From IMG/VR virus record IMGVR_UViG_3300025594_000026, positions 1 through 36,553 of that record: 36,553 nt of DNA, one strand, 5' to 3'. Under the pieces are notes generated by a model. It was not told the DNA's origin. It saw only the letters and a list, made by a program, of their open reading frames with translations, and ran no database searches. The DNA is from a virus. Of the stretch, positions 6,427 through 36,553 are shown piece after piece (within the stretch, counting starts at the first letter, position 1; the number at the start of each line of letters is the position of its first letter). The translations under genes were made by a program, and so were the position numbers.

Positions 6427-7053
6427 ATGAACGCTGACGAACTAAAAGAAAAATTAAAACTACATGATATGTGGCTGAAGGGTTTTCGTGATGGGGTAAG
6501 GCTAGACCTACGCTCTGCCGACCTAAGCTCTGCCGACCTACGCTCTGCCGACCTACGCTATGCAGACCTAAGCTCTGCCGACCTACGCTATGCCAACCTA
6601 CGCTCTGCCGACCTACGCTATGCCAACCTACGCTATGCCAACCTACGCTCTGCCGACCTACGCTATGCAGACCTAAGCTCTGCCGACCTACGCTCTGCCG
6701 ACCTACGCTCTGCGAAAGAAATAAGCCAATACGTTAAAGACATTACAATGGCCTGCCCAGAGTCAGGGTCTTTTGTTGGCTGGAAAAAAGTTAACGGTGT
6801 AATTGTAAAGCTGTTAATTCCAGAGGGTGCAAAGCGATCAAGCTCAACGTCAAGAAAATGCAGGGCTGAGTTTGCAGAGGTTCTTGAGGTCGATGGAGCG
6901 GTGAATAAGGTTGTCAATAAATCTTATAATCACGAAACCATTTATGAAGTCGGAAAAAGAGTCACACCAAATAGCTTTGACGAAGATCGTTGGAACGAAT
7001 GTAGCAACGGCATTCACTTCTTCATCACTCGCGGAGAGGCGGAAAGATACTAA
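6427..7053 (+). CDS. Pentapeptide-repeat protein with DUF5758-like C-terminal domain
   Basis: A 208-residue protein: a short helical N-terminus, about 14 tandem pentapeptides of the A(D/N)L(R/S)(S/Y) type at residues ~27-96 forming a right-handed quadrilateral beta-helix, then a C-terminal domain (GSFVGWKKV...VIVKLLIPEGAKRSS...NGIHFFITRGEAERY) typical of phage and mimivirus pentapeptide proteins. Some pentapeptide proteins (Qnr, MfpA) mimic DNA and bind gyrase; whether this one does is unknown. The stop overlaps the next gene by one base (TAATG). Confidence 0.85.
   Translation: MNADELKEKLKLHDMWLKGFRDGVRLDLRSADLSSADLRSADLRYADLSSADLRYANLRSADLRYANLRYANLRSADLRYADLSSADLRSADLRSAKEISQYVKDITMACPESGSFVGWKKVNGVIVKLLIPEGAKRSSSTSRKCRAEFAEVLEVDGAVNKVVNKSYNHETIYEVGKRVTPNSFDEDRWNECSNGIHFFITRGEAERY
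6505..6714 (+). repeat. 15-bp tandem repeats encoding the pentapeptides
   Basis: Fourteen 15-bp units of the form GACCTACGCTCTGCC, differing at only a few positions (C/A before GCT, TCT/TAT, GAC/AAC, GCC/GCA). The near-identity at DNA level, including third positions, points to recent expansion by slippage or unequal recombination. Confidence 0.9.
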
Positions 7054-11715: not shown

Positions 11716-12897
11716 ATGGAAATAGTCCCACGCAACATAAACGATTTAATACCCGCAGAGTATAACCCCCGCCAGCTAACCGACAATCAGGCGGAGCAGA
11801 TCAAGGGAAGCTTGCAACGATTCGGATTTGTCGATCCGGTCATAGTGAACAAGCATCCAGACAGAGACAACATCATTGTCGGTGGGCATATGCGTATCCG
11901 ATGCGCCAGGGAGTTAGGCATTGAAGAAGTGCCGACCGTAGAGGTCAGTCTCGATGCAGATAAAGAGCGAGAGTTAAACGTCCGCCTCAATAAAAACAGC
12001 GGGTCATGGGACTTTGACGTACTCGCAAATGAGTTTGACGTAGAGGACTTGGTCGAATGGGGCTTTGATGAGGGCGATTTAACGGGCTTTGACGTAGACA
12101 CAGGCGAGGCCGAAGAAGTAGAAGCCGCGGAGCCTCCCGAAGATCCGAAGACCGAGCTAGGGCGAATCTATCAGCTTGGCAGGCATCGGCTTATGTGCGG
12201 GGATAGCACGAGCGAGGAAGATGTGGGCAGGCTTATGGATGGGGAGAAGGCCGATATGGTGTTTACCGATCCGCCTTATGGCATGTTTTTGGATGCTGAC
12301 TTCTCAGACATGGACAGCAAGTTCAAAGGTTCTGATGGTGGTAATAAGTACGAAAAGGTGATAGGTGATAATGAAGATTTTAAGCCGGAATTAATACAGA
12401 CTGTTTTTGATAACTTCGGGTACTGCAAAGAGGTTTTTTTATGGGGTGCCGATTACTACGCAGAAATACTTCAGTCTAAAAATGAAGGGTCATGGGTGGT
12501 TTGGGATAAGCGGGGCGGTGAGTCGGCAGACAAAATGTACGGATCATGTTTTGAATTGTGCTGGAGTAAGGCGAGACACAAGCGCGACATAGCAAGGGTG
12601 AAGTGGGCTGGTATTTTCGGAATGGAAAAGGAGCATGACAAGAAAAGAGTACATCCCACGCAAAAGCCTGCACTTCTCGCCACTTGGTTCTTTAATAGGT
12701 GGGGAGCTGTAGGCGATATAGTGGCAGACCTTTTCGGAGGCTCTGGATCAACCCTAATAGCCTGCGAACAACTCAACCGATCATGCAGGATGATGGAGCT
12801 AGACCCGAGCTATTGCGATGTGATAGTAAAGCGCTATGCAGAGTGCGTTGGCACAGACGCTGACGAGATATTTAAAACAGGATTCCACGATGCCTAA
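11716..12897 (+). CDS. ParB-like/DNA adenine or N4-cytosine methyltransferase fusion
   Basis: 393 residues. Residues 1-80 are a ParB/sulfiredoxin-like domain (LIPAEYNPRQL, QRFGFVDPVIVN, IIVGGHMRIRCARELG). A linker follows, then a class-beta amino-methyltransferase domain with DPPY (185-188, motif IV) before DLFGGSGST (338-346, AdoMet motif I), plus HPTQKP (313-318). It should methylate DNA bases (N6-adenine or N4-cytosine). No partner restriction gene is present, so protection against host restriction or a packaging or replication mark is likely. It lies directly upstream of the terminase genes. Confidence 0.88.
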   Translation: MEIVPRNINDLIPAEYNPRQLTDNQAEQIKGSLQRFGFVDPVIVNKHPDRDNIIVGGHMRIRCARELGIEEVPTVEVSLDADKERELNVRLNKNSGSWDFDVLANEFDVEDLVEWGFDEGDLTGFDVDTGEAEEVEAAEPPEDPKTELGRIYQLGRHRLMCGDSTSEEDVGRLMDGEKADMVFTDPPYGMFLDADFSDMDSKFKGSDGGNKYEKVIGDNEDFKPELIQTVFDNFGYCKEVFLWGADYYAEILQSKNEGSWVVWDKRGGESADKMYGSCFELCWSKARHKRDIARVKWAGIFGMEKEHDKKRVHPTQKPALLATWFFNRWGAVGDIVADLFGGSGSTLIACEQLNRSCRMMELDPSYCDVIVKRYAECVGTDADEIFKTGFHDA

Positions 12898-19616: not shown

Positions 19617-19790
19617 ATGACAATGAAAGATTTTTTAACGTTAGCATCGAATAAGACAAACCAGCCTAAGGAAAACATAGAGGCGTGTATGGAGATTGTT
19701 CTTGAGGAAATGGACGAGCAGACAGCCTTTAAAGCCTATGCTAACACCTGCGGTTTTGGCGATGATTATCGCCGGGAATTATCTGCATGA
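19617..19790 (+). CDS. 57-residue protein leading the methyltransferase cassette
   Basis: ATG 19617 follows GAAAGGG with the same leader as the early genes; the in-frame ATG at 19584 lies in the leader. A helical acidic protein (FLTLASNKTNQPKENIEACM) with a PKENIEACMEIVLEEM core. Coupled to the methyltransferase by ATGA. Function unknown; an accessory or regulatory partner is possible. Confidence 0.6.
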   Translation: MTMKDFLTLASNKTNQPKENIEACMEIVLEEMDEQTAFKAYANTCGFGDDYRRELSA

Positions 19791-20749
19791 TAGTTCTCTC
19801 CTGCTTCGATGGTATGTCGTGCGGTCAGCAAGCCATTGAAAGGCTTGGAGTCCCCGTTGCAAAATATTTTGCCTATGAAATCGACAAGTATGCAGTCCAG
19901 ATTACATCTAAGAACTATCCTGAGACTATCCATCTGGGAAATATCTGTGATTGGCCTCTGCATAACCTGCCCAAGATTGATCTAATCTTAGCGGGGTCAC
20001 CCTGCCAGGGGTTCAGCTTTGCAGGTAAACAGCTAAATTTTGACGATCCCCGTTCAAAGCTATTTTTTGAATTTGTAAAGCTGTGGAAAGCCTTGAAAGC
20101 TGTAAATCCAGATATAAAATTCCTGCTCGAAAATGTTAAGATGAAACAGGAAAGTCTCGATGTAATAACTCAACATATGGGAGTCGAGCCGATCCTTATA
20201 AACTCTGCATTGGTTTCCGCTCAGAATAGACAGCGCTGGTATTGGACTGACCTGCCCAGCGCAGGGCAACCCGATGATAAATGCATATTTTTAAAGGATG
20301 TCATGCACGAATACAGAGACGCGGGGATAGATGCCGAACACCTTAAGGTTTGCCGCAAAGGGAGGTACAAGAAACACCAGAACAAAGCCAGTTGCTTAAC
20401 AGGTGGGCATAGAGGCGATGGCAACCACTCCGACATGGATGTTATTGCTTTCCTTAAATGCTCTGAAGTCGGTCATGCTTTAGATATAAACGGCCATGAT
20501 TTCCTTAAGCGTATCTACTCAAAATATGGGAAAGCCCCAACCCTTACGGCTATATGTGGAGGTAACCAGCACCGCAAGGTTGCCATAGATGACTATGTCT
20601 ATCGCAGGTTATCCGTGGTTGAGTGGGAGAGGTTGCAAACTGTTAAGGATGGATATACTGATGGTGTAAGTCAAACCCAAGCGTTTAAGATGCTGGGCAA
20701 CGGCTGGACTGTGGATGTTATAGCTCACATATTAAAATCACTAAAGTAG
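19787..20749 (+). CDS. DNA cytosine-5 methyltransferase
   Basis: 320 residues with the C5-methyltransferase motifs in canonical order: I (LSCFDGMSCGQQA), IV (GSPCQGFSFAG, catalytic Cys in PCQ at 72-74), VI (ENV at 115-117), VIII (QNRQRWYW at 146-153) and X (LGNGWTVDVI near the C-terminus). The compact target-recognition region lies at about 190-260. It methylates cytosine at C5 to evade host restriction; there is no restriction partner. It is inserted between capsid and minor head genes with its own terminator and promoter, so it looks like a moron. Confidence 0.92.
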   Translation: MIVLSCFDGMSCGQQAIERLGVPVAKYFAYEIDKYAVQITSKNYPETIHLGNICDWPLHNLPKIDLILAGSPCQGFSFAGKQLNFDDPRSKLFFEFVKLWKALKAVNPDIKFLLENVKMKQESLDVITQHMGVEPILINSALVSAQNRQRWYWTDLPSAGQPDDKCIFLKDVMHEYRDAGIDAEHLKVCRKGRYKKHQNKASCLTGGHRGDGNHSDMDVIAFLKCSEVGHALDINGHDFLKRIYSKYGKAPTLTAICGGNQHRKVAIDDYVYRRLSVVEWERLQTVKDGYTDGVSQTQAFKMLGNGWTVDVIAHILKSLK

Positions 20750-23808: not shown

Positions 23809-24415
23809 AGAAATCTGTACGTTATACGAGCTAGGCAAGCTCACCGAGAATCCCCCGAAGCGTTACCACAACACGGAGGGGTTTACCCATTCGATCAAGG
23901 GGCGGACTTTTCACCCGATTACCCCGCGCATTAGATATTGGCTTTCCGAGATAGCAAGTCCAGTGCTTGCAGATACCCCGCTTGAAACATTCTTTTGCCT
24001 GTATGCCTCAGAGTTCCCTGATAAGCTCAAGACCTTAACTGACCCTATGCGGATTGCCGAGGTTGTGCAGGGATACGCCTTATCACTCAATCTCACGCAG
24101 TCGGAAACGCTTGACGCGATAGAGTTTCTATTCCCTCCCGACCCGCTAGATGTCGAGCCGAGAAAGCAGTTAGAGGAACACGAAAAAGCCACGATCACAC
24201 AATACATAGCCAAGGCTACGGAGCATTTCAACGGGTCATTTGATGATTGGCTAAATTCACCCGAATCGCGCTTGTATAACTGCGTAGACGAAGCAATCAG
24301 GATCGAGAGTCAGAGCGGTAGCGAGTACAAAGAGCAGGCGGTCAGAGCGATGAAAGCCCACTTGATAGCGTTCGGAGTGATAATGAAGAAACACGGAATT
24401 GATTTAGATGGCTAA
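23723..24415 (+). CDS. Tail assembly chaperone-like protein, 230 aa
   Basis: The ATG follows AAAGGGGTAGACA inside the preceding gene. The protein is helical with a C-terminal domain ending in MKKHGIDLDG. Location between tube and tape measure is the position of tail assembly chaperones. No known motif; position-based call. Overlaps the tape-measure start by 8 bp. Confidence 0.5.
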   Translation: MLEIKELPSETKRLLTIAQSQYKTTLTAEEICTLYELGKLTENPPKRYHNTEGFTHSIKGRTFHPITPRIRYWLSEIASPVLADTPLETFFCLYASEFPDKLKTLTDPMRIAEVVQGYALSLNLTQSETLDAIEFLFPPDPLDVEPRKQLEEHEKATITQYIAKATEHFNGSFDDWLNSPESRLYNCVDEAIRIESQSGSEYKEQAVRAMKAHLIAFGVIMKKHGIDLDG

Positions 24416-25964
24416 AGACGTAAGCATTATAATAAGGCTACAGGACAAGACCAAGGCTGGAATTGCGTCTGCTCGCAGTGGTTTCTCTAAATTTACGAGC
24501 GAGACAAAGAGCAAGCTTAAATCCTTAAACGATAGCCTTGGAGGTCTTGGAACAACCATTGCTGGAGCTTTTAGCGTTCGGGCTGTAATGGGCTTTGGTC
24601 GTGAGCTTTTAACAACTGCCGCGAACCTTCAAGCCGTTTCGGATCGTGCGGGAATCACTGCCGTTGAAATGCAGACATTCCTTGCGTCAACAAAGCGCGG
24701 GGGCGGTACTATCTCCGAGCTAAACATCGGCCTTGTTACGCTTCGCAAACAGCAACAAAACGCAATCAATGGAATGCCCGAAGCTGTAAAGGCTTTTAAC
24801 GCTCTAGGATTATCCATAGAAGACGTTGCGAACATGACAAACTCTCAACTGCTGGAAGCGGTAGCAAAGGGCATCAAGCGCACTGGAGACTTTGGAAACG
24901 GCTTTAAGCTTATGGGCGAGAGTACAGCGCGACTCCACCAGCTTATAAGCGACCTTGCTGATAATGGCGTGGACGGGCTTACAGACAAAATGCAGAGCCT
25001 GGGCCAAGTAATGTCAAACGAAACAGTCAAGGGTCTTGAGCAGGCAAACAACTCACTTGTTGAGTTTAATAACAGTCTGACCGTAATCGCTGGAAGCACA
25101 GCGGGATTTTTTCAGAGAAACATTGAAAAGACGCTTGCCGTATTGATGACGTTGCCAAGCGGAATAAAAGCCACAAAAGAGCTTCTTGACCAATACGACA
25201 GAGAAGGTGAGGGAGGCGAGAAGGCTGATACAGGCGCACAAGATCGAATAGCAGAGCAGGCAAAGGTTGAAGCTGACCTACGCGCCTCGGCAAAGGCTGA
25301 AGCAGACAAAAAAGCTCAGGAAAAGTACGATCAAGAAACTGAGCAAATAATGAAGGCCGCAGAGAAGCGAAGCAAAGAGCTTGCGGGGGCTTTGACCGAT
25401 GAAAAGATCAAGGCCATTGAGGATGACACAGCGCGGGAGATTGCTGAAATAGGTCGAGCGTTACAGGAAAAGCTTGGGGCTTTGCAAGGTGGATCTGATG
25501 AAGAAAACGCCTTGCGCTTGCAACTGGCCGCGAATGCAAAAGCCGAGATTGAAAAGGTCTTGCAAGACAAGCACGATGCCGAGCAGGAAAAGGCAGACGC
25601 TTTAGCTGATGAAGCCAAAGAACAAGAGCAGGATCGTCAATCAAAGCTCGCAGACGCGCAAAAGACAGCTTTGCAATCACGCCTCGGCAAAGTAAATGAA
25701 GCCCTTGCCGACCTAGACAAATCCCCAGAGCAACGCAAAGCCGAAGACCGCGAAGCCAATGCCCTACGCAGAGTTAGAGAGAAGCTTTCATCGGGCCGTC
25801 AACGCTTTAAGGATTTATCTGAAAAGGATAAAGACACGTTTAACAGGGGCAAGCTTAACGCGATCAAAGCCAAGACCGAGGCCGATCTTGCAAAAACAGA
25901 AAAAGACGGCTTTGAGGCGATGGTCCGCGTTGCCAACGTCATCGCACCCGCAGGAGGTAACTAA
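24408..25964 (+). CDS. Tape measure protein (short)
   Basis: 518 residues. N-terminal tape-measure pattern (IIIRLQDKTKAGIASARSGF, then a Gly/Ala-rich region with a hydrophobic GLGTTIAGAFSVRAV) followed from about residue 270 by a long Ala/Lys/Glu/Asp coiled coil (KVEADLRASAKAEADKKAQE and similar). At about 0.15 nm per residue the tail would be near 80 nm, short for a siphovirus. No lytic transglycosylase or peptidase domain is visible, unlike many tape measures. Confidence 0.8.
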   Translation: MAKDVSIIIRLQDKTKAGIASARSGFSKFTSETKSKLKSLNDSLGGLGTTIAGAFSVRAVMGFGRELLTTAANLQAVSDRAGITAVEMQTFLASTKRGGGTISELNIGLVTLRKQQQNAINGMPEAVKAFNALGLSIEDVANMTNSQLLEAVAKGIKRTGDFGNGFKLMGESTARLHQLISDLADNGVDGLTDKMQSLGQVMSNETVKGLEQANNSLVEFNNSLTVIAGSTAGFFQRNIEKTLAVLMTLPSGIKATKELLDQYDREGEGGEKADTGAQDRIAEQAKVEADLRASAKAEADKKAQEKYDQETEQIMKAAEKRSKELAGALTDEKIKAIEDDTAREIAEIGRALQEKLGALQGGSDEENALRLQLAANAKAEIEKVLQDKHDAEQEKADALADEAKEQEQDRQSKLADAQKTALQSRLGKVNEALADLDKSPEQRKAEDREANALRRVREKLSSGRQRFKDLSEKDKDTFNRGKLNAIKAKTEADLAKTEKDGFEAMVRVANVIAPAGGN

Positions 25965-26242: not shown

Positions 26243-26745
26243 TGAGCAACAAGTTCAAAGCTTTCCCGTTCAGCGGTGCGCCTATCAAGAACATAGGCGA
26301 GGCTCTACGCAACCTTCCAGACTTTATGAACTGGATGTATAACTTTTTCACCGAGCTTTCCGCAAGTTCTGAAGTGGATCGCGTTGTGATTAACGCATCG
26401 GGACGGGGAAGCCTTATCCCCCTGGGCGGGAGTAGTTCAAGCGATATGTTCCACAGCACATCGAGCGAAGACAATCTGATCAGCGTGACCGCAGGCGTTT
26501 GCGTGGTGGGCTTAACGTCCCATAGCATAGCAGCCTTGGAAGATGAAGCGGTTTCAGATGACAAGTGGCTTGTGCTTCGTGCGGATCTTCGCAACCCTGC
26601 AACCGTGCCGACTTATCAGGTGGTAGATAATCCTTATCCAGCATCTGACGAAAGCTATTATAAATACTGGAAAATTGCCCGCTTCGATGGCAGTGATTTC
26701 CAACGTGCGCATGGTGGAGGTTTGCTTGAAGTCGATTTTACTTAG
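26242..26745 (+). CDS. Tail-tip region protein, 167 aa
   Basis: Coupled by TAATG. N-terminal helix (IGEALRNLPDFMNWMYNFFTEL) followed by a beta-rich half (SVTAGVCVVGLTSHSIAAL and following), which could be an attachment helix plus a beta domain as in small fibre-associated proteins. No family recognised. The 3' end overlaps the next gene by 20 bp with the TTG start chosen there. Confidence 0.5.
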   Translation: MSNKFKAFPFSGAPIKNIGEALRNLPDFMNWMYNFFTELSASSEVDRVVINASGRGSLIPLGGSSSSDMFHSTSSEDNLISVTAGVCVVGLTSHSIAALEDEAVSDDKWLVLRADLRNPATVPTYQVVDNPYPASDESYYKYWKIARFDGSDFQRAHGGGLLEVDFT

Positions 26746-28108
26746 CCTGTTTATTTGCTCTGTTGCGCTTGCTGATTGGAACACCGAGGCGTGGAGCGGT
26801 GACTATTGGCGATATACAACCGACGGTCAACCTACTTCCTATTTGATAAAATCGAACGCACTGGAAGCTTTAGCCGAACGACAGTTAGCGGTGGGCTTTG
26901 GTATGTCAACAAACGATGTCACCACATTTTACCGAGACGTGCCGTTCACTGACAACATGGCATTGTCTGAAATGAAGTTCTTTCTAAAACAGATCATTGA
27001 TGACTTTATAGATATCGACCTGACATCCACCACAAACATCGTCTACCACACGATCACAGGGCTATGTGAAAAGGTGGGCATAGAAACGAATTACTTTGAT
27101 TACACGCCACCCCGCTTTCTTTATGTCCCGACAAACAGCGCAAGCTTTTATCCGACCAACTCAAGCACGGTCGGCTCGTCAACAATGGCGAATTACGGCT
27201 GGTATTATATAAAACCAATCATGGAGGAATTAGTTGCAACGGACGGTACAGGTGGAGGTGCAACGTACAAGGGCAATAGCTACAGCTACACTATAGGGGG
27301 AAGCATTGGGTCGTACTCTTACTACACATGGGATGGCGATTGCTTGTGCGGGCGACCCAGTGTCATGAATAACTTTGGCACATCGATATCAACGAACACC
27401 ACCGCGGTGCTTACCACGGACGCAACAGGGGTCAATCTTTCAAACATTTTTGATTCCAGCCAAGACAATTTAGCTTATTGGAAGCATAACCAGTTTGATG
27501 CTTCGGGAACGGATTGTACGTGGACTTATGGCGGGAACAGTGGAAGCGGTAATGATCTATCTTATTCGGTAGCAACGAACATCACGACCACAGCTTCAGC
27601 GAGAAACACCAACGTTAATTCTAGTGCTGTTATTTATTGGAAATTCCAGCAGCCGAACGCATCGCAGGATTCATTTATAAAGGATTTAGTAGCGGGAACG
27701 GTAGGTGCAGACTATCCAAGCTTGGATGATGGGGCGAACTGCGAAGAGGGTGACGAATGGCCTTTGAGCTTTGCGCTGGGTGGCAACTCAAACTTGGTCG
27801 GATCAGCAACCAATCTGCCTTCCTATTCAGTATGGGGAGGCGTGACCAATCTTACAGCAATGGTTGATGCACAATCGGGAAGCGAGACTAATGCGACCAC
27901 AGACGGTAGCTTTGACTTCTCGCTTGCCTTGTCGCCTACGGTAAAGATATTTGAGGTTGAGGATTCGGTAACAGATTCAGATGCTCAAGGGACAGACACG
28001 CAAATCCAGAAGCTACACAGCTATACCTTGCCTCCTTTCGATATCAAGCAAAACGGTGCGCAAGTCATCATCTATTACAACGTGACAGACGGTTTTGATT
28101 ACCAATAA
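26726..28108 (+). CDS. Secreted-type late protein with signal peptide (460 aa)
   Basis: The start is TTG 26726, which lies 5 nt after GGAGG (26716-26720) and gives a clean signal peptide MKSILLSLFICSVALA before DWNTEAWSGDYW. Longer in-frame readings run into the previous gene. The mature region is Ser/Thr/Asn/Tyr/Gly-rich with many TN and SS pairs, beta-rich by impression, like a fibre or surface protein. No enzyme motif seen. A Sec signal on a virion-region gene is unexpected; it may be a host-derived surface protein or a fibre with periplasmic exposure. Confidence 0.62.
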   Translation: MKSILLSLFICSVALADWNTEAWSGDYWRYTTDGQPTSYLIKSNALEALAERQLAVGFGMSTNDVTTFYRDVPFTDNMALSEMKFFLKQIIDDFIDIDLTSTTNIVYHTITGLCEKVGIETNYFDYTPPRFLYVPTNSASFYPTNSSTVGSSTMANYGWYYIKPIMEELVATDGTGGGATYKGNSYSYTIGGSIGSYSYYTWDGDCLCGRPSVMNNFGTSISTNTTAVLTTDATGVNLSNIFDSSQDNLAYWKHNQFDASGTDCTWTYGGNSGSGNDLSYSVATNITTTASARNTNVNSSAVIYWKFQQPNASQDSFIKDLVAGTVGADYPSLDDGANCEEGDEWPLSFALGGNSNLVGSATNLPSYSVWGGVTNLTAMVDAQSGSETNATTDGSFDFSLALSPTVKIFEVEDSVTDSDAQGTDTQIQKLHSYTLPPFDIKQNGAQVIIYYNVTDGFDYQ

Positions 28109-28112
28109 TTAA

Positions 28113-31058
28113 ATGTCGGCAAAAGGCATGAAGAAACTAATCCTCTGCCTGCTTTTCCCTATCCTGACATACGCAGCTCCCCCTGCGATGCAATTCTCTC
28201 TGGACGTACAAGATCCTACGGACTGGCCGAGGGGCTTTGTCATCCGACAAGCTACCACGCCACGCATTGACTTTCGCTTAGTCGAACAAGGTTCAGCGTA
28301 TACGAACATAGTCGGTGCAACCGCAGTCTTTCATTATTATAAGGATCGAGACGACGGCACAATCCAAGTCACAAGTTCAGACGTGACAGCAGAGGACGGC
28401 ATTCTACATCTTGATTTTACAGCTATCGAATCGAACACCAACGGAGCTTTCAAAGCTGAATTAATCGTAACGCTTGCAGACGGTTCGCTGATTCAGTGGG
28501 GCAGAGGTCGCATCGAGATTGAGAAGAGCGTGGCTACAGGGGTAACACCAGCCAGCACCGATTCAACGCGCACCTATGCGAATATCGACACCTTCGTTGG
28601 TGTCGAGGCTTACGGGCCTTATCGCGCAGGAACGAACGTGACCTTTTCGACCAACGCTGACGGGTCTGTAGACATAAATGGGGGCGCAGGCGGTGGAGGA
28701 TCAGGCGATCTTACCGAGGTTCAAGTATCTGGTGGGCTTCTCACAGTCGCCACTGGTACAGGCCCGATTCCAGTTGTCGGCTTAACCGCTGCATCGGTGA
28801 ATAGCGCGGAGACAGATCCGAACGCGGTGCTTTTGACCACAGCACAAACCATCGCAGGATCAAAAACTTTCAATTCGCCTATCATTGGATCGGGTGCAAA
28901 CCTCACTAGTCTAAACGCTACCGAGCTAGACAGCGGAACAATCCCCCTCGCTCGCATCGTAGACCTTACATCAAATGAAGTCGCAGCAGCGACGGACACG
29001 GCTTATCGTAACGTGGCCGAGACAGACCCTCTGGCGGGAACTGAGTACGTTGGCACAGCATTGGTTGCCAAAGGCCAGACGGGAGATGCTAGAGGAACAA
29101 CAGCGGTAGACTTACAGCTCTCAAGGGCTGCGTCAACGCAGGTAGCATCTGGAACTTATGCTTCACTGACAGGCGGGGAAGACAACACAGCGAGCGGTAA
29201 CTGGTCAACGGTTGTGGGCGGTTCAGGCAACACCGCATCAGGCACACAATCCACGGTTATTTCTGGTGCTGACAACGTGGCATCTGGTACGCTTTCAACA
29301 ATTCTTGGTGGTGCTAACAACGAGGCAACAGCATTATATGCCATGGCATCGGGCCGAAAAAGTAAGGCCGTCCATGTAGGGGCAAGGGTTTTTTCTGACC
29401 AAGAAAATGCAGATTTCACAAGCACAGCCCAAGACCAATTCCTAATCCGAGCTGCGGGAAATGTCGGCATCAACACAAACGCACCCTCGACAGCCTTGGA
29501 GGTTTTTGGAACAGCTACAGCAACAGCGTTCAGTGGGGACGGTGCAAACCTAACCGACCTCAACGCTACCCAACTAACGAGCGGTACAGTTGCCAACACA
29601 AGACTGGGCGACATCAAGATTGCAAACTCAACAGGTGTCTTGACAGGTGGAGTTTTATCCATCGGTGCAGGAACAAACACTTACAGCATCTCAGACGGGA
29701 CAGGTGTTATTGTCGATGAAAATGGATTACTGACATCTGTTTCATGGACTGGTAAATCAAATATCGTGCCGACCAACTTAGGCTCTGCCTTGTTGACATG
29801 GGTGAGCATAGATTCTGGAGGTAATGTTTCAGAACACATCATCCCATGCGATGCCAACATGAAGCGTTCGCAAGTCTGCCTTGGAGTCGTCGTCCATGTG
29901 AACCTGTCAACGGTAGATGCCGTGAACAACGAGCAGGTCATCGCCTACAATCCCATGTCATCTCTTTACGATCTAGCATCTGCAATTGGATTTATGAATA
30001 TCTCAGGCAACGTTTTTTCTCCCAATGGAGCTAACCTTAATTTTGACAAGACAATCGGTGACATCTTCGCTACTGGATCAAACTATCCAAACGATGCGAA
30101 TGACCCCCATGTAAAGTCGCTTCCAGCTTTAACTGCTTTAACCTTTCAATATAGATTTTCTGACGGAAGCAATGGAACTACGGGAGCGCCTATCGATCCA
30201 GATAACCTTGATGATGGGGCTGGAGGATTGAACGCAGTGGCAAACAATAAATGGTCAGTACAGCGAATCTATTCCTTCATCTCAAACAATGTTAAACTCC
30301 AACGAGGCGTTTCTGATTACAGCGATAAAGCGTCTGCGATTGCAGGAATATCGAGTGAGCCGTTTATCACCGAGCCAAGTATTGAAGCAAACGGTCTTTT
30401 AAGAGGCTGGCTAGTGGTTAAGAAAGGTGCGACGGACCTTAGCGACTCAGGAGTAGCCGAGTTCATTCCCGCAGGTAAATTCGGTGGCGGTAGCGGGGGC
30501 ACAGGTGGAGGCGGTGGATCTCCACCCGCTACGAATACGACTACGCTGACCATGACCAACCTAGTCGCCTTTCCTGCGGGTTTGAGCATTGGCGGGGTAG
30601 CGGTAACGAATATCGTTACAAACTGGCACGGATTCTTCGCCTACAAAACCACTAGCACATCGGTTGCTGGCAACGGCAACTACACAACCGTCATTTACGA
30701 CGCAGAAAGGTCAGACAACTACGGCTTGTATGACACAACCACAGGATATTTTAGACCCGATCAAACGGGGCTTTGGCAGGTCAATACGTTTGGCTTTTCG
30801 GCAACAGCAGCGGGCGGGACTGGCAACTGGCTGGCCTCAGCTTTACGCAGGGTTTCAGACAATAATAACATGGGGATGCCTATATCTCTTTTCACAGTCG
30901 GAACCTCTGAGCCGTCCATAAATGCGGGGGTTATTACTGTATACCTTGTAAGCGGGGTTGATTATTATATGCGCTGGTACAATGCGGACACCGCATCCTT
31001 CAGCATGCAATCGGGCGAAGAGAGGCAGTTCTTTAGCGCGGAGTTTTTAAGTCCGTGA
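28113..31058 (+). CDS. Tail fibre with YadA-like repeats and C1q-like C-terminal domain, with signal peptide
   Basis: 981 residues. N-terminal hydrophobic segment GMKKLILCLLFPILTYA before APPAMQF is a signal-peptide-like region (alternative ATG at 28128). A beta-domain with ...DVQDPTDWPRGFVIRQA... resembles the BppU/baseplate N-terminal type. GANLTSLNATELDSGT (about 261-277) and GANLTDLNATQLTSGT (about 475-491) are repeated. YadA-like GG.NTASG.WSTVVGG units lie at about 348-405 (trimeric stalk/head type). A Gly-rich linker at about 790-806 and a C-terminal C1q-like jelly roll (FFAYKTT ... VIYDAERSDNYGLYDTTTGYF) close the protein at 840-981. Likely the receptor-binding fibre. The stop overlaps the next GTG. 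Confidence 0.8.
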   Translation: MSAKGMKKLILCLLFPILTYAAPPAMQFSLDVQDPTDWPRGFVIRQATTPRIDFRLVEQGSAYTNIVGATAVFHYYKDRDDGTIQVTSSDVTAEDGILHLDFTAIESNTNGAFKAELIVTLADGSLIQWGRGRIEIEKSVATGVTPASTDSTRTYANIDTFVGVEAYGPYRAGTNVTFSTNADGSVDINGGAGGGGSGDLTEVQVSGGLLTVATGTGPIPVVGLTAASVNSAETDPNAVLLTTAQTIAGSKTFNSPIIGSGANLTSLNATELDSGTIPLARIVDLTSNEVAAATDTAYRNVAETDPLAGTEYVGTALVAKGQTGDARGTTAVDLQLSRAASTQVASGTYASLTGGEDNTASGNWSTVVGGSGNTASGTQSTVISGADNVASGTLSTILGGANNEATALYAMASGRKSKAVHVGARVFSDQENADFTSTAQDQFLIRAAGNVGINTNAPSTALEVFGTATATAFSGDGANLTDLNATQLTSGTVANTRLGDIKIANSTGVLTGGVLSIGAGTNTYSISDGTGVIVDENGLLTSVSWTGKSNIVPTNLGSALLTWVSIDSGGNVSEHIIPCDANMKRSQVCLGVVVHVNLSTVDAVNNEQVIAYNPMSSLYDLASAIGFMNISGNVFSPNGANLNFDKTIGDIFATGSNYPNDANDPHVKSLPALTALTFQYRFSDGSNGTTGAPIDPDNLDDGAGGLNAVANNKWSVQRIYSFISNNVKLQRGVSDYSDKASAIAGISSEPFITEPSIEANGLLRGWLVVKKGATDLSDSGVAEFIPAGKFGGGSGGTGGGGGSPPATNTTTLTMTNLVAFPAGLSIGGVAVTNIVTNWHGFFAYKTTSTSVAGNGNYTTVIYDAERSDNYGLYDTTTGYFRPDQTGLWQVNTFGFSATAAGGTGNWLASALRRVSDNNNMGMPISLFTVGTSEPSINAGVITVYLVSGVDYYMRWYNADTASFSMQSGEERQFFSAEFLSP

Positions 31059-32101
31059 TTAGATATATCCCATTTCTTTTAAGCTCGCTTTGTTTTGGCG
31101 GGTCGCTACGCGCCATTGATAACGGGCTGGTCTTGACTACGGCCAGTAATTTAATCTCTACGCCCTCGGTGTCATTTGCGCCTTTTGAAAGCTGGCGGGT
31201 TTCAAGTTCTGCGGATTATGATGCATTCCCCAAAGCTTGCCAGGTGTCGAATAGTGAATTTTATATCGTGTACAAAGCCGGAGTAAGTCATGCCGGCGCG
31301 GGGGATGCTATTGTATTGAAGTCTAGTAACCTTGTGGATTGGGCGGAAGTGGCAACGCTAACCCCTACAGCGGGGCGTACCCGCGTACAGGAACCCGATA
31401 TAGCTTTGGCCTATGATGGGCGTTTACAGGTCGCTGCAAGACAGGCTGGTGGCGCGGGGTATCTAAACTGCATAAAATATTCTAGCGATGGGGGAACCAA
31501 CTGGACTTCATGGATCACGAACGCGATCCCCTCAAATGAACTATTTTACAGAACGGAATGGGTAGGATCTACAAACTTTTTAATTGCCTACAGCATAGCG
31601 CAATCAAATGTTGTGCTCTATTCCAGCACGGACGGGACAAACTACAGCGAGTACGCCACGGTAATGGAGGGCACTACAGAGGGCGAATGCGCCATTTCGT
31701 TTGATGGAGATTTAGCACTTGGGACAGTACGCAAAACAAGCACAGACGCAGGGTGGGCCGTGTGGTCTACTGCGCCCTATACGAATTGGAATAGTTCGGC
31801 CTTGTCGGTTTCAGTCGGTGGGCAGGGGGCTATCCGTTTTAATGGCAAGGAGTATGTGTTCGCTCGCTGGTTCACCGAGCATGGCGATACAGATTTGTCT
31901 GCCAATGGCGTATGCCTTGTAACGACAAATAGCTTTAGTCCTATATCATTCCCTACGCCCTCGGCCATTTCGGGCGAGTATTACGATGGGGGCTACGGTG
32001 ATTTCTTAACGAAGGACGGGCAACTTTATGCGGTGTTTTATGCGCCTGATGACGAGGGAACGGCCATTTATGTTGCGCGGTTGGATATATGGGAGGACTG
32101 A
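31055..32101 (+). CDS. Sialidase-like beta-propeller protein with signal peptide
   Basis: 348 residues from GTG within the fibre stop (GTGA). Signal-peptide-like start MIRYIPFLLSSLCFGGSLRA. Asp-box motifs SSDGGTNW (143-150) and a weaker one SSTDGTNY (190-197) mark a six-bladed sialidase/BNR propeller. The catalytic Arg triad and Tyr/Glu pair cannot be assigned, so it may be a glycan-binding or glycan-cleaving fibre-linked enzyme. It could act on host surface glycans together with the fibre. Confidence 0.65.
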   Translation: MIRYIPFLLSSLCFGGSLRAIDNGLVLTTASNLISTPSVSFAPFESWRVSSSADYDAFPKACQVSNSEFYIVYKAGVSHAGAGDAIVLKSSNLVDWAEVATLTPTAGRTRVQEPDIALAYDGRLQVAARQAGGAGYLNCIKYSSDGGTNWTSWITNAIPSNELFYRTEWVGSTNFLIAYSIAQSNVVLYSSTDGTNYSEYATVMEGTTEGECAISFDGDLALGTVRKTSTDAGWAVWSTAPYTNWNSSALSVSVGGQGAIRFNGKEYVFARWFTEHGDTDLSANGVCLVTTNSFSPISFPTPSAISGEYYDGGYGDFLTKDGQLYAVFYAPDDEGTAIYVARLDIWED

Positions 32102-32107
32102 AAACTT

Positions 32108-32416
32108 ATGAATGTAATTTTAATAGCTCAGATAGCAACGCTTATTCTGGGACTCTGCACCACAGCCTTCAGCTTCTATTCAGCCGTTGAGTTCTCACAG
32201 GTCAGCGGTAGACTTTCCAAAGCCATCGCGGGTACGCTAATGGGCGAGTGCTTCATGGGGGCTATGACAACTTCCTTCGCACTTATGGAAATGTGTGGCT
32301 ATATTCGGCATCTTCCCCTTGAGGTGTCTACAGGGATGCGGGTCGTTATGTTCTCTCTAGCGTCTGGAACAACTATGGTGCTAGTCAAAGAGCTTAAGAG
32401 GGTGCATCGTGCTTGA
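32108..32416 (+). CDS. Holin-like membrane protein, 102 aa
   Basis: About three hydrophobic segments (VILIAQIATLILGLCTTAFSF, a Gly/Met/Ala segment including GECFMGAMTTSFALM, and a third in VVMFSLASGTTMVLV) and a basic C-terminus (KELKRVHRA), as in class I holins. It sits at the start of a row of small membrane proteins downstream of the fibre genes, the usual lysis position. Family not recognised. Confidence 0.5.
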   Translation: MNVILIAQIATLILGLCTTAFSFYSAVEFSQVSGRLSKAIAGTLMGECFMGAMTTSFALMEMCGYIRHLPLEVSTGMRVVMFSLASGTTMVLVKELKRVHRA

Positions 32417-32729
32417 TCTAATCGCACAAACCGCAATGCCGTCAATGGACGTTATGCGCGAATGGGGATCGTTCGGATTAATCGTTTATCTTTTCATCCA
32501 GCTTTGTCGCGGGGCTAAGTGGATAGCGAGCGAGGCTAAGACTGGCATTGTATCGGCCTTTGAGAAGATCGTTGCGGAGCAAGCCTCATGGCGTGTGGTG
32601 TTACACGATAACACAGAATTTCTCAAGAAAATGCACGCTGACCACAAAGCACTGGAGATCGAGAGAAGTAAAAAGACGCAAAACTTAACCGATGCTGTTG
32701 GTAGAATCAGCGACCAAATGAAAGGCTAA
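32409..32729 (+). CDS. Holin/spanin-like protein, 106 aa
   Basis: A GTG start inside the end of the previous gene. One hydrophobic segment near the N-terminus (FGLIVYLFIQL) followed by a charged coiled-coil C-terminus (EFLKKMHADHKALEIERSKK). One span plus coiled coil is the design of BhlA-type holins and of spanins. Lysis role inferred from position and architecture. Confidence 0.5.
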   Translation: MLDLIAQTAMPSMDVMREWGSFGLIVYLFIQLCRGAKWIASEAKTGIVSAFEKIVAEQASWRVVLHDNTEFLKKMHADHKALEIERSKKTQNLTDAVGRISDQMKG

Positions 32730-32731
32730 AT

Positions 32732-33400
32732 ATGAAATACTTACTATTACTTTTAATACCCTGCATAGCATTCGCAGAATACCGCGAAGGGACTATGATG
32801 CTTGATGAGGGCTACAACCTTGTCCCGTATCAAGACTATTCCAAGAAAGCAGACCGCTTTGATGAGCGCAAAGCCGAGCCGTTCGGATCGTTTCTAATAA
32901 CCGAGTCAGAGCAGCGGGCAACCGCTGGCGTTCGGTTCTGGATGGGTAAAAGCTTCTCGAAACAGATCAAAGAATATCACGCTGATTTAGTACGGACTGG
33001 CTACAATCCCGACTACTCCGAGAGCGTTGCCGAGGTCGAGAGCGTTTCTGATAGCGAATATCGCAACAGAACAGCGTCAGAGGACATTCTAGGCATACTT
33101 GCAGATACAAAGCCAAAGGGAACTGTCGAAGCCGTCAGCGACAAGGTAACGGCCAAGGGTGCGCTAATCACAATTTTGAGCGCGGGGGCTTCATACTTCG
33201 TTTACGATCAATATATCCAGCGGGACAGATCCAGCGCGGACGAACCGAAAGAGGGCATTCGTCTTAAGTCGGGCGATGTGTTTATATCTGACGCAATAGC
33301 CGAGGGCCGAGAGATCAGCGCAAGCCTGGGCGAATCGGGAAGCTCAAGCGTCTCAATCGGAACTTTCGAGCCGAGGGAGGAAACCAGTGAAGCTGAATAG
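32732..33400 (+). CDS. Signal-peptide protein with internal membrane span, 222 aa
   Basis: Signal-peptide-like N-terminus MKYLLLLLIPCIAFA before EYREGTMML. The central region is charged; a second hydrophobic segment (ALITILSAGASYFVYDQYI) lies at about 145-165, and the C-terminus is Ser/Glu-rich. No enzymatic motif. It could be an envelope-spanning lysis or exclusion protein. Confidence 0.55.
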   Translation: MKYLLLLLIPCIAFAEYREGTMMLDEGYNLVPYQDYSKKADRFDERKAEPFGSFLITESEQRATAGVRFWMGKSFSKQIKEYHADLVRTGYNPDYSESVAEVESVSDSEYRNRTASEDILGILADTKPKGTVEAVSDKVTAKGALITILSAGASYFVYDQYIQRDRSSADEPKEGIRLKSGDVFISDAIAEGREISASLGESGSSSVSIGTFEPREETSEAE

Positions 33401-33680
33401 CCCTTTAATCAAATACGGCTTATCATTCTTGGCAGGCGCTTCAATCTCTGCCGGAACTATTGGAGCGATTACAAAGCGTGTGTCTAACGTCAAGATAGCG
33501 ATTGAGAAGCGCGACATTACTTTGATACCGAAAATATGGGAAGCTCGGGATCGTGTAATAGTCGATCATGGCGAGTTGCTTGAAACGCTAGCTAAAGAGC
33601 AAGGAAAGGTATCTCTTGACACGATAAGGGATTACGCCCTACACTATCAGACCTTGAACCAACTTGAAAACATCGAATAG
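33387..33680 (+). CDS. Small membrane-anchored protein, 97 aa
   Basis: A GTG start after GAGGGAGGAAACCA, overlapping the previous gene by 14 bp. One N-terminal hydrophobic segment (IKYGLSFLAGASISAGTIGAI) followed by a charged helical region; spanin-like or holin-like architecture. Function unknown. Confidence 0.5.
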   Translation: MKLNSPLIKYGLSFLAGASISAGTIGAITKRVSNVKIAIEKRDITLIPKIWEARDRVIVDHGELLETLAKEQGKVSLDTIRDYALHYQTLNQLENIE

Positions 33681-33765: not shown

Positions 33766-34197
33766 ATGAAGTATGAACCACACCATGTAGAAGCCTATCC
33801 CGAATTTGAGCCTGTGAATATTCGCACGGTTCCAGAGGATCAGATATACAGCTTCAAAGGTTGCGCGGTATGGATACACGCTGGTGACTTCTTATTCTGG
33901 ATTGATGGCGAAGAGTTCACCATGCCCGATGGCTTTTACTCTGACCTCAATTCAGACCCCGCAATCATTCAGCTATTTCTTGAGAAGGACAACTATCACA
34001 ACATCGCTGCGGGAGGCATTCACGATTGGGGCTACCGCACCGGAATCTTTGGAAGTCGCAAGCGCACCGATCAAGTTTACAGAACGGTTTTAGAATATTA
34101 CGGATCACCCGAAGCAAGGTTGCGCTATTGGGGCGTAAGGCTTGGTGGCTGGCTCGTATGGAGAAAGCATAGAAAGCAAAACCCACTGAAAGGATAG
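33766..34197 (+). CDS. DUF1353 family phage protein
   Basis: 143 residues with the DUF1353 pattern: DGFYSDLNSDP (usual DG.tSDlaSvP), AAGGIHDWGYRTG (usual AaviHDwLYr), RKRTDQVYRTVLEYYG and a C-terminal YWGVRLGGWLVW. DUF1353 proteins are common in phages near lysis genes; their function is not established. The conserved His-Asp pair suggests a metal or catalytic site. Confidence 0.75.
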   Translation: MKYEPHHVEAYPEFEPVNIRTVPEDQIYSFKGCAVWIHAGDFLFWIDGEEFTMPDGFYSDLNSDPAIIQLFLEKDNYHNIAAGGIHDWGYRTGIFGSRKRTDQVYRTVLEYYGSPEARLRYWGVRLGGWLVWRKHRKQNPLKG

Positions 34198-34198
34198 C

Positions 34199-34945
34199 AT
34201 GAAAGACAACTATGAAAGATTTGTATATTTACCCGATCCGCATGGAGACCAGCAATGCGAGAAGTCAAACCGCATAGCCCATGAGTTCATGCAGGATTTC
34301 AAACCGGAACACATCATTGCAGGCGGTGACGTTTTCGACTTTCGCAACCTTCGAAACGGGGCGAGCAAAGAAGATCAAGCCGAAAGCATGGAAGCTGATG
34401 TGCGAATGGGTAAAGAGTGGTTGTTAAAGTTTAAGCCGACAACCTACCTTAGAGGCAATCACTGTGAAAGACTATGGGATGCTTCAGAACACCACGCAAA
34501 CGGAATGGTTCAGGACGTAGCACAGCGCGGAGTCAGGGACATCACCAATATCATTGACGGCCTCGGTTGCGAAATGATTAAGTACGACTTCAAACAGTGC
34601 AAGCGCATAGGTCGCGCTAAGTTCGCTCACTCGTTATTCTGCCCGATGCACACGGCAAAGAAGGGCGCGGAATACTACGGGGCCGGAACTACTTTTTTAG
34701 GTCACACGCATTCGATAGACTACTACCAAGCGCAAGGTATCGACTTCGCAGAATGCTTTGTTGCTGGTTGCCTATCACGGCTCGATCCGAAGTATGCAGA
34801 GCGAAGGGCTAATACCTCACGATGGCAGAACGGCTTTTGCTACGGTATGATTCATAAGATCAGCGGTCACGTTATGGGTTTCCAGGCGCGGGGCTTGCAG
34901 AACGGTGAATGGGTATTCCCTTCAGAAATGGTGGTGATGTCGTGA
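34199..34945 (+). CDS. Calcineurin-like metallophosphoesterase, full-length copy
   Basis: 248 residues with all motifs of the fold: DPHGD (13-17), GGDVFDF (42-48), GNHCE (86-90) and GHTHS (168-172), giving the two-metal active site. Acts on phosphate esters; the substrate is not readable. The start is an ATG 1 bp after the DUF1353 stop. From residue 64 on it differs from the truncated copy at 1-587 at 6 positions. Overlaps the next gene by GTGA. Confidence 0.88.
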   Translation: MKDNYERFVYLPDPHGDQQCEKSNRIAHEFMQDFKPEHIIAGGDVFDFRNLRNGASKEDQAESMEADVRMGKEWLLKFKPTTYLRGNHCERLWDASEHHANGMVQDVAQRGVRDITNIIDGLGCEMIKYDFKQCKRIGRAKFAHSLFCPMHTAKKGAEYYGAGTTFLGHTHSIDYYQAQGIDFAECFVAGCLSRLDPKYAERRANTSRWQNGFCYGMIHKISGHVMGFQARGLQNGEWVFPSEMVVMS

Positions 34946-35136
34946 GTTGGGCCGATGAGCTAGTCGAGTCGTTAAAGGTACAGGAACGTCCAGAGGATTC
35001 TATCAGCTCTTATGAGCTTGCAGAAAAGACGGGCAAGTCACAATCTCATTGCAACAGCCTTTTACTGAAAAAGTATGGCGATGGCGAGCTTGATCGCTTA
35101 AAGGTCGGGCGCATACATTATTATTTTAAGAAGTAG
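34942..35136 (+). CDS. Small winged-helix-like protein (copy 2)
   Basis: GTG start as in copy 1. The 64-residue protein differs from the 584-778 version at 8 positions, mostly in the putative recognition helix and wing. It precedes the second control region, whose palindromes also differ from copy 1, which fits regulator-operator co-variation. Confidence 0.65.
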   Translation: MSWADELVESLKVQERPEDSISSYELAEKTGKSQSHCNSLLLKKYGDGELDRLKVGRIHYYFKK

Positions 35137-35199
35137 CAAATTTGCAGGCAGTCACAGCGATGTGATTGAGAAGGTCGTGAGAACCTATCCGTTCCTGCT

Positions 35200-35220
35200 T
35201 ATCTATCAAATTGATAGATA
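35200..35220. repeat. Perfect 21-bp palindrome, operator candidate
   Basis: Two 10-bp arms, TATCTATCAA and TTGATAGATA, around a single central A. The same half-sites are split 35 bp apart (centre to centre) in copy 1 (821-830 and 856-865, one mismatch). Strong candidate for a dimeric repressor site. Confidence 0.6.
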
Positions 35221-35492
35221 CTGATAGCTGATTGATACACGATCTAAGCATCTTTTTTACACCCGATCTACTGCAAACTATGCCCGCTCTCACATAATGT
35301 TATGGAATCGGGTATAGTCGTGAAAACCGCGCCAGATCACCGCGCAGATATTCACTTCTCTGCATATTTCGCGGACATTACCGTGCTAATCCCCGTATAT
35401 TAAGCGCATATTCACGATAATGAAAAGTTCACTGATATTTGAACACTGACTTGTTCTAAGTCGAGCGCATAAACGTAGTTTTTTGCCGTTAC

Positions 35493-35509
35493 ATTCGCGA
35501 TTCGCGAAT
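35493..35509. repeat. ATTCGCG/CGCGAAT inverted repeat
   Basis: Perfect 7-bp arms around ATT, at the position equivalent to 1104-1118. Confidence 0.45.
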
Positions 35510-35585
35510 AGCGAACGCATTTATTTTCCGCTAAAAACAGCGTTATTCCCTAGGAAATACGCTCGTTTTGAAAATACTTTACGAA

Positions 35586-35615
35586 TTGTTTTGATAAACA
35601 GGCGTGTGGTTATGT
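35586..35615 (+). promoter_or_regulatory. Early promoter candidate, copy 2
   Basis: TTGTTT (35586-35591), an 18-nt spacer, TTATGT (35610-35615), then a leader starting ATGAAAGCAACGCAATT and ending CGAAAGGGAATACAATG. It is equivalent to the element at 1212-1241. Confidence 0.55.
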
Positions 35616-35660
35616 AGTCTCTTAATTATGAAAGCAACGCAATTAACGAAAGGGAATACA

Positions 35661-36005
35661 ATGAATAGAGAACTTAGCAATAAACCTTGGGGCGGAACAT
35701 TCCTTCATTTTCAAGACGCTGTATGCAAAGAGCTGACCTTAAGGGGGGAGTTTTCCAGTGATTGGTTTGCCTCTAAAGAGGGCCAGAAAAGAATGGATCA
35801 ATCTTTCCATGAAGGGCTTCCCTTTAATCTTGCTGTGAGCGAGCTTTCTTTATGGTGCAAGGGGTGGGTTGCAAAAACGCATCGTGAAGAGTCCAGCCCC
35901 CTAAAGCTCGCAAAGTCAGTCACGGTCATTCCAGAAACCCACACATTTAACTTTACCCATACTGCTGGCGAGGACGAGATGATGATGGGCGGACTAAATG
36001 TTTAA
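35661..36005 (+). CDS. 114-residue early protein, first gene of the early operon (copy 2)
   Basis: ATG 35661 follows the shared leader; an upstream in-frame start would translate it. The protein is Trp/Phe-rich (NKPWGGTFLHFQDAVC and SELSLWCKGWVAKTH) with a Met/Gly C-terminus. It is unrelated to the 54-residue protein in the same slot of copy 1. Function unknown. Confidence 0.6.
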   Translation: MNRELSNKPWGGTFLHFQDAVCKELTLRGEFSSDWFASKEGQKRMDQSFHEGLPFNLAVSELSLWCKGWVAKTHREESSPLKLAKSVTVIPETHTFNFTHTAGEDEMMMGGLNV

Positions 36006-36174
36006 TCCTTTCAAGAGAAAGCATAAGCACCTTTGGCAACCGACCAAGGCAAACGGATTCGGACACATAGTCGAGGAAATGTGCTGGGGGTGTGGGAAGT
36101 ATAGGAAAACGGAGTTAGACAAGAAAATAAGCCCCACATTAAATGAAAAAACGAAAGGAAACACATGGAACTAA
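35998..36174 (+). CDS. 58-residue Cys-containing early protein
   Basis: The ATG overlaps the upstream gene by 8 bp. Basic, with CWGCGKYRK that could be half of a zinc site. No counterpart at this position in copy 1, so it is part of the swapped cargo. Confidence 0.5.
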   Translation: MFNPFKRKHKHLWQPTKANGFGHIVEEMCWGCGKYRKTELDKKISPTLNEKTKGNTWN

Positions 36175-36233
36175 TCATAATACTACTAATCCAATTCACC
36201 GCCCTAGCATGGGCAATGCGGGGTACGCTATGA
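36165..36233 (+). CDS. 22-residue membrane peptide
   Basis: The ATG follows GAAAGGAAACAC, the stop overlaps the next ATG (ATGA), and almost the whole peptide is hydrophobic (LIIILLIQFTALAWAM). It is a small membrane-peptide candidate, unrelated in sequence to the one at 1845-1931. Confidence 0.4.
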   Translation: MELIIILLIQFTALAWAMRGTL

Positions 36234-36373
36234 CCGAAGACGAATCAATCCGAGTCCACTACCGCACCAATATCCTGCTTGGCCTAAAGCCCTGCATGGC
36301 GATATACGAAACTGCCAAGGCAACAGGCTACAGCAAATTTCGCGTTAAGTGCGCGATCAAGGGGAAGGCATGA
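36230..36373 (+). CDS. 47-residue conserved early protein (copy 2)
   Basis: Coupled by ATGA to the previous peptide and to the next gene. It differs from the 1490-1633 protein at 5 of 47 residues, all near the C-terminus, and has the same HTH-like helix pair. In copy 1 its ribosome site GAAAGGAAACACA is intergenic; here the start is inside the neighbour. Confidence 0.65.
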   Translation: MTEDESIRVHYRTNILLGLKPCMAIYETAKATGYSKFRVKCAIKGKA

Positions 36374-36553
36374 AGCAGGCCGACAAGATCAAGATAGCAG
36401 TACGAGCAGAAACCTTTGTAAACGGTCTGGCAATCGGGTGCAAGATGAACGTGATGCACTTTGTAGATTGGATACAACGTGACGATTCAGAAACGCACGC
36501 ACAGTTTGCGGGACGGCTGTTTCAGGTGATCTTCCCCGAAGGCTGCGAACACA
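36370..36553 (+). CDS. 72-residue-family early protein, 3'-truncated (copy 2)
   Basis: Partial copy of 1630-1848, cut by the right edge. The N-terminus differs (QADKIKIAV versus QDAKVKIAV), but from 36427 the DNA is identical to 1687-1813. Confidence 0.65.
   Translation, partial: MKQADKIKIAVRAETFVNGLAIGCKMNVMHFVDWIQRDDSETHAQFAGRLFQVIFPEGCEH

Follow-up and report, generated by a model that had tools for sequence, protein, structure and literature searches.

The late region of the genome analyzed here raises the question of why genes in the tail-fiber slot of a tailed phage should begin with Sec-type signal peptides when, to our knowledge, tailed-phage textbooks place all tail and fiber assembly in the cytoplasm. 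The window, i.e., the whole stretch of DNA analyzed, is the IMG/VR virus record IMGVR_UViG_3300025594_000026 of 36,553 bases, whose gene set is that of a tailed phage (Table 1). Its two ends (positions 1 to 1813 and 34359 to 36553) are diverged direct copies, 90% identical over 781 bases and 85 to 93% over the rest; the record thus probably covers an entire genome that is circularly permuted and was closed on a strain variant. The window terminase falls in a fully supported 18-row clade made up otherwise mainly of Lentisphaerota genomes, along with a single viral contig and a single Hydrogenedentes bin, which points to a host probably in or near the Lentisphaerota/Verrucomicrobiota group.

The terminase relatives in Lentisphaerota were used for phage placement only, as they are mostly host DNA with few intact tail modules. 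In many of these genomes (L071, L073, L077, L078, L082, L084, and L085), terminase genes 42 to 47% identical to that of the window sit among host-like genes rather than in obvious complete prophages. Elsewhere in the window, positions 6427 to 7053 encode a protein with a pentapeptide-repeat-like run (ADLRSADLRYADLSS...) in internally repetitive DNA, and there are two DNA methyltransferase-like genes (11716 to 12897 and 19787 to 20749), one of them with a ParB-like N terminus; the second interrupts the head genes.

Table 1. Structural genes and the block downstream of the tape measure in the window; proteins are named in the text by their start positions
Position	Strand	Product	Match or remark
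13180		Terminase	
15991		Portal	phrog_145, 2e-27
18166		Major capsid	phrog_267, 1.9e-30
20775		Minor head protein	
24408..25964	+	Tape measure protein	Homologous to P8625 gp19 (24%, E 1e-10)
26726..28108	+	460-aa protein, TTG start, predicted signal	No recognizable family
28113..31058	+	981-aa tail fiber, predicted signal peptide	phrog_16641, BppU_N-like, YadA-head repeats
31055..32101	+	348-aa protein, GTG start, weaker signal	Weak BNR/sialidase-like match
32108..32416	+	102-aa multi-TM protein	Holin-like by size and position; no family match
32409..32729	+	106-aa protein, one N-terminal TM, charged tail	Lysis-region candidate; no family match
32732..33400	+	222-aa protein, predicted signal peptide	Second hydrophobic stretch near aa 143-163
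33387..33680	+	97-aa protein, N-terminal TM	Lysis-region candidate
33766..34197	+	DUF1353 protein	PF07087

Signal peptides and start codons of the four window proteins

The initial annotation had assigned Sec-type signal peptides to 26726, 28113, 31055, and 32732, and all four open reading frames were recovered at these starts. N termini were scored with a home-made function that combines the n-, h-, and c-regions with the (-3,-1) rule and is not SignalP; nine classical E. coli-type signal peptides used for calibration gave scores of 8.2 to 12.6. An n-h-c signal peptide with small residues at -3 and -1 was found in each of the four proteins. It is strong in 26726 (score 11.2; predicted cut between MKSILLSLFICSVALA and DWN, giving a signal peptide of 16 aa), 28113 (10.8; between MSAKGMKKLILCLLFPILTYA and APP, alternatively read from the ATG at 28128), and 32732 (11.4; between MKYLLLLLIPCIAFA and EYR), all with small-x-Ala cleavage sites, and weaker in 31055 (6.9; between MIRYIPFLLSSLCFGGSLRA and IDN), so that the earlier observation is confirmed, with 31055 as its weak case. 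When the proteins' own residues were shuffled in 20,000 trials, the observed score was never reached for 26726 or 32732 and was reached 5 times for 28113 and 466 times for 31055; the 31055 signal by itself is therefore not compelling. The only other gene starts in the window that scored above 6.8 were those of the short membrane proteins 32108 and 33387. Signal enrichment in the block gave a Fisher p of about 7e-4 for a contrast that was picked after the data were seen. No lipobox Cys follows the signal in any of the four proteins. Altogether, the results support that the proteins of this block are predicted Sec exports.

The annotated starts of 26726 and 31055 are reasonable: the former is preceded by GGAGG at 5 nt and has no further in-frame ATG until codon 60, and the latter has no in-frame ATG before codon 204. 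Those of 28113 and 32732 are less certain. The 28113 start lies 4 nt past the upstream stop, to which it may be coupled, and no Shine-Dalgarno sequence precedes either this start or the in-frame ATG at codon 26. For 32732, AAAGG lies 6 nt ahead of the start, and further in-frame ATGs at codons 22 and 23 are preceded by GAAGGG.

Identities of the proteins in the fiber block

By its domain content, 28113 is clearly a tail fiber and the only clear fiber among the four proteins. It lies in the tail-tip region, of which the tape measure gene forms the upstream boundary. Its residues 479 to 798 make up a tail-fiber domain (phrog_16641, 7.5e-23) that matches fibers of Stenotrophomonas, Flavobacterium, and Streptomyces phages; the protein also matches phrog_5668 (8.4e-18) and the DLP_6 tail fiber (38% over 286 aa), and it ends in a distinct C-terminal region. 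Residues 324 to 446, approximately, are YadA-head/beta-roll repeats common to the P8625 tail fiber and UspA1, and residues 49 to 140 match BppU_N weakly, at 17.4 bits against a Pfam cutoff of 23.1.

Three known systems resemble 28113 in part. The Verrucomicrobia siphophage P8625 (KP792622) has a related tape measure and the same general gene order as the window, and its fiber gp22 has the YadA-head/beta-roll region in common with 28113 (41% over 130 aa); unlike in the window, gp22 and the neighboring tail genes carry no signal peptide. To the lactococcal receptor-binding baseplate proteins BppU/BppL (PF10651 and PF18338), 28113 has the weak BppU_N match, which is below the curated cutoff and lies at the position expected for a docking domain, with fiber-style repeats behind it. 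The BppU proteins known to us are part of a baseplate assembled in the cytoplasm and carry no signal peptide. Trimeric autotransporter adhesins of the YadA/UspA type combine a signal with YadA-head-like repeats as 28113 does (UspA1 structure, E 1.2e-11), whereas the phage late operon and the tail-fiber domain set 28113 apart from them; a Pfam search of 28113 for the C-terminal YadA_anchor beta-barrel gave no match.

The neighbors of 28113 are less easily placed. Two small tail genes lie between the tape measure and 26726, the first gene here to bear a signal. Protein 31055 resembles a sialidase propeller weakly (BNR_2, 18.2 bits against a cutoff of 31.4; sialidase chain, E 0.011). Given its signal, its second hydrophobic stretch, and its place among small membrane proteins, 32732 is probably not a fiber but an envelope or lysis protein. 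Hence, where the initial annotation had considered fiber or glycan-active proteins, only 31055 looks glycan-active, and weakly so, while 32732 goes with the lysis/membrane block; of the four proteins, one is certainly a fiber, two beside it are candidates, and one belongs to the membrane region. A search of the phage collection found no relatives of 26726, 31055, or 32732, and in IMG/VR the close relatives of 26726, 28113, and 31055 were either pieces of the same phage or absent. AlphaFold2 models built without an alignment were unusable (pLDDT 45 and 32, that of 26726 included); Foldseek with the first model (pLDDT 45) returned no match at E <= 0.001, and a profile of three N-terminal domains had no relevant match in the PDB. 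Among the proteins scanned between 32108 and 34197 there was no recognizable endolysin, a role that the DUF1353 protein at 33766 or an unrecognized neighbor may fill.

Recurrence and patchiness in related prophages

Genomes of the phylum to which the nearest terminases belong were searched for BppU_N and for DUF1353, an anchor gene found downstream of the fiber block in most related prophages. Fiber-type proteins with signal peptides were found in ten further phage-like loci, which carry several unrelated virion modules, one of them podophage-like. In G296 (L160/L161), an independent prophage, a 420-aa protein (G296_14053) repeats the order seen in 28113, a signal followed by a BppU_N-like domain (22.1 bits, and 23.6 bits in the genome search, against a cutoff of 23.1), and the next gene (245 aa) is signal-bearing too. 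The L168 locus, with a phrog_1005 major capsid gene, encodes at position 12629 a 655-aa protein composed of a signal-like start (score 8.2), a beta-rich domain, a collagen stem, and a tail-fiber C terminus (phrog_5073, 1.4e-22), followed by a 492-aa protein with fiber-like repeats and a clear signal. Related fibers of 472 to 489 aa with clear signals occur in L172 and L224, both with the podophage-like adaptor phrog_332, and in L222, which has a weak tape-measure match. L193, whose phage has a portal, a protease-major capsid protein, and a tape measure, encodes a 487-aa fiber with classical fiber repeats and a 362-aa neighbor, both signal-bearing. Further cases are a 284-aa fiber-like protein in a Lentisphaerae genome (L237, with a phrog_1357 major capsid gene), L166 (with a tape measure), and L223 and L228, two loci outside the PHROGs check of virion genes. 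Nearly all examples have a short n-region containing Lys or Arg and, at the distance expected for signal peptidase, a small-x-Ala motif. Between the tail genes and DUF1353, the window, L172, and L193 have no other fiber-like open reading frame, which leaves the signal-bearing proteins as the only receptor-binding candidates.

The signals are kept in homologs that have diverged. The L172 and L224 fibers are 72% identical overall and 76% in the mature part, with 10 of 17 signal residues the same; 22 of the 54 signal nucleotides have changed, yet L224 retains a score of 12.0. When the same number of changes was introduced at random, 13% of the mutants scored 9 or more and 0.06% reached 12.0. A second pair, L193b and L223b, is 33% identical, and both members have kept a signal. 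Such upkeep is what selection for export would be expected to give, in what is a small sample of two homologous pairs.

For the frequency of the trait, we relied on the hand-checked loci above rather than on a crude count in PVC genomes (21 of 110 genes of at least 250 aa), since some of the genes counted are host genes or tape measure segments. Among terminase-related IMG/VR contigs, 2 of 203 genes encoding 250 aa or more scored as signal-bearing; the comparison between PVC and control genes, p about 1e-8, is based on uncurated counts and is not to be leaned on. Nine same-strand DUF1353 blocks of Pseudomonadota contained no fiber-like signal-bearing case, the three long Pseudomonadota genes that did score as signal-bearing having no fiber-like appearance. 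The cultured verrucomicrobial phage P8625 has an unsignaled fiber, and the Lentisphaeria prophages L250, L252, L254, and L255 have ordinary ones, so the trait is recurrent and patchy and is not required. Most often it was observed in one order of the phylum, apparently that of G277, G296, G367, G459, G483, G505, and G319. That unrelated prophages of a single phylum show it repeatedly speaks against host genes captured only once, one of the origins that had been proposed for the window proteins; of that set of proposals, predicted export and a fiber identity for 28113 stand. DUF1353 loci of Bacteroidota with secreted proteins were set aside as prophage cases because they look like host DNA; two of them (L239 and L241) have a peptidoglycan-binding protein adjoining DUF1353, secreted proteins, and no capsid genes.

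Proposed export of fibers and competing explanations

From the signal-like N termini, the fiber domains of 28113, the location of the proteins in the tail-fiber slot, and the recurrence in unrelated prophages, all of which are direct observations, we infer export, cleavage, presence in the virion, and late joining. The reading we put forward, at somewhat less than an even chance, is that receptor-binding fibers leave the cytoplasm via Sec and are added to virions when these are released or later. Protein 28113, probably with 26726 and 31055, would form the receptor-binding fiber set of a siphophage; the fibers would be made as Sec preproteins, translocated through the inner membrane, and cleaved by signal peptidase I. 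Export would separate them from the capsids and tails assembling in the cytoplasm, and they would reach the tail tip only as virions exit or once lysis has let the periplasm mix with the cytoplasm; the BppU_N-like domain would be the docking end. The signal-bearing proteins are the only fiber candidates in the window, L172, and L193 and must be the fibers if these phages possess any, which favors virion fibers that travel via Sec and reach the particle late. P22 tailspikes are able to attach to completed particles extracellularly, and by this analogy late joining appears physically reasonable. Counting against it are the podophage-like fibers, which have no known virion-docking domain although one would be expected if they joined virions; counting against the proposed fiber set, 26726 has no family match at all and the BppU_N matches lie below or near the cutoff.

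With a little more reserve, we suggest that several unrelated tailed phages of Verrucomicrobiota-Lentisphaerota may finish their virions extracytoplasmically, with Sec-secreted fibers attaching during or after release. No description of such an assembly route for Caudoviricetes was found in the literature searched, and the full-text literature, in which few subscription journals were covered, yielded no report of tail fibers of tailed phages with Sec signals. The nearest parallel is pIII of filamentous phages, a receptor-binding virion protein that has a Sec signal and meets the particle at the membrane. Inoviruses are extruded without lysis, whereas the window belongs to a tailed phage with a terminase, portal, and tape measure. 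Chronic phage release has been described in Lentisphaerae (PMC11361711), with extrusion observed for filamentous phages only, and thus lends late joining no direct support. Prior export of the fibers, if it occurs, would create a new connection between virion completion, receptor masking, and the timing of lysis, and signal peptides could then serve to find the host-range proteins of PVC phages, which are poorly cultured.

A close rival, unlikely in our estimate, is that the proteins are exported and never join the virion, acting instead at the surface or in the periplasm as fiber-derived proteins that mask receptors or modify them (superinfection exclusion) or that alter the lysogen surface; lysogens of this phylum would then carry fiber-derived surface adhesins or exclusion factors. 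The signal peptides, real by sequence, fit this equally, as do the missing docking domains of the L172 and L224 fibers and their relative L222, the weak sialidase-like match of 31055, and the L197 homolog, in which a membrane-anchor-like segment comes after a cytoplasmic tail. There is also a parallel in lysogenic-conversion surface proteins encoded among tail-fiber genes, such as that of lambda, in which lom encodes an outer-membrane protein with an export signal; this too is an exported product from the fiber region of a tailed phage, but lom is no fiber, while in the window the fiber itself is signal-bearing. Against a non-virion role, several phages would be left without any other virion fiber candidate, 28113 and G296_14053 keep a baseplate-binding-type domain behind the signal, and the genes lie within the late structural run. 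Both of the earlier proposals at issue here, an unusual assembly route and a surface function, fit the recurrence, and the sequence data do not separate them.

It is improbable that the N terminus stays uncleaved, either anchoring the fiber in the inner membrane or contacting a membrane or plugging the tail as part of the particle. The 28113 segment does lie directly ahead of the putative docking domain, and L197, an 868-aa homolog that is the second fiber in the genome of L172, has a hydrophobic, anchor-like segment of the Ala-x-Ala type about 55 residues in; the signal-peptidase motif and Lys/Arg n-region of nearly all examples speak for cleavage. We consider it quite improbable that the proteins are secreted host proteins carried as cargo and unrelated to phage fibers. 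Proteins 26726 and 32732 do lack phage relatives, and secreted fiber-like proteins exist outside phages in Bacteroidota (L241), but 28113 and the L168, L172, and L193 proteins match tail-fiber families, and homologous signal-bearing fibers recur within the phage modules of several genomes; for 28113 this origin is already disfavored. Least probable of all is that the signals are prediction artifacts, arising from downstream starts or chance hydrophobic stretches: the start-codon ambiguities of 28113 and 32732 and the modest score of 31055 would allow it, but 26726 and 31055 have no nearby alternative ATG, signals are conserved in kind among diverged homologs of other phages, and shuffles almost never reach the score for three of the four proteins.

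Two further classes of small, putatively exported proteins were seen in the related prophages. At L174, L229, L230, L181, L183, and L223, small lipoproteins adjoin DUF1353, in the position of an outer-membrane spanin. In L160 (10655 to 11035) and L168 (9004 to 9393), proteins of 126 to 129 aa with strong signal peptides are encoded directly 3' of the major capsid gene, the slot expected for a head decoration protein.
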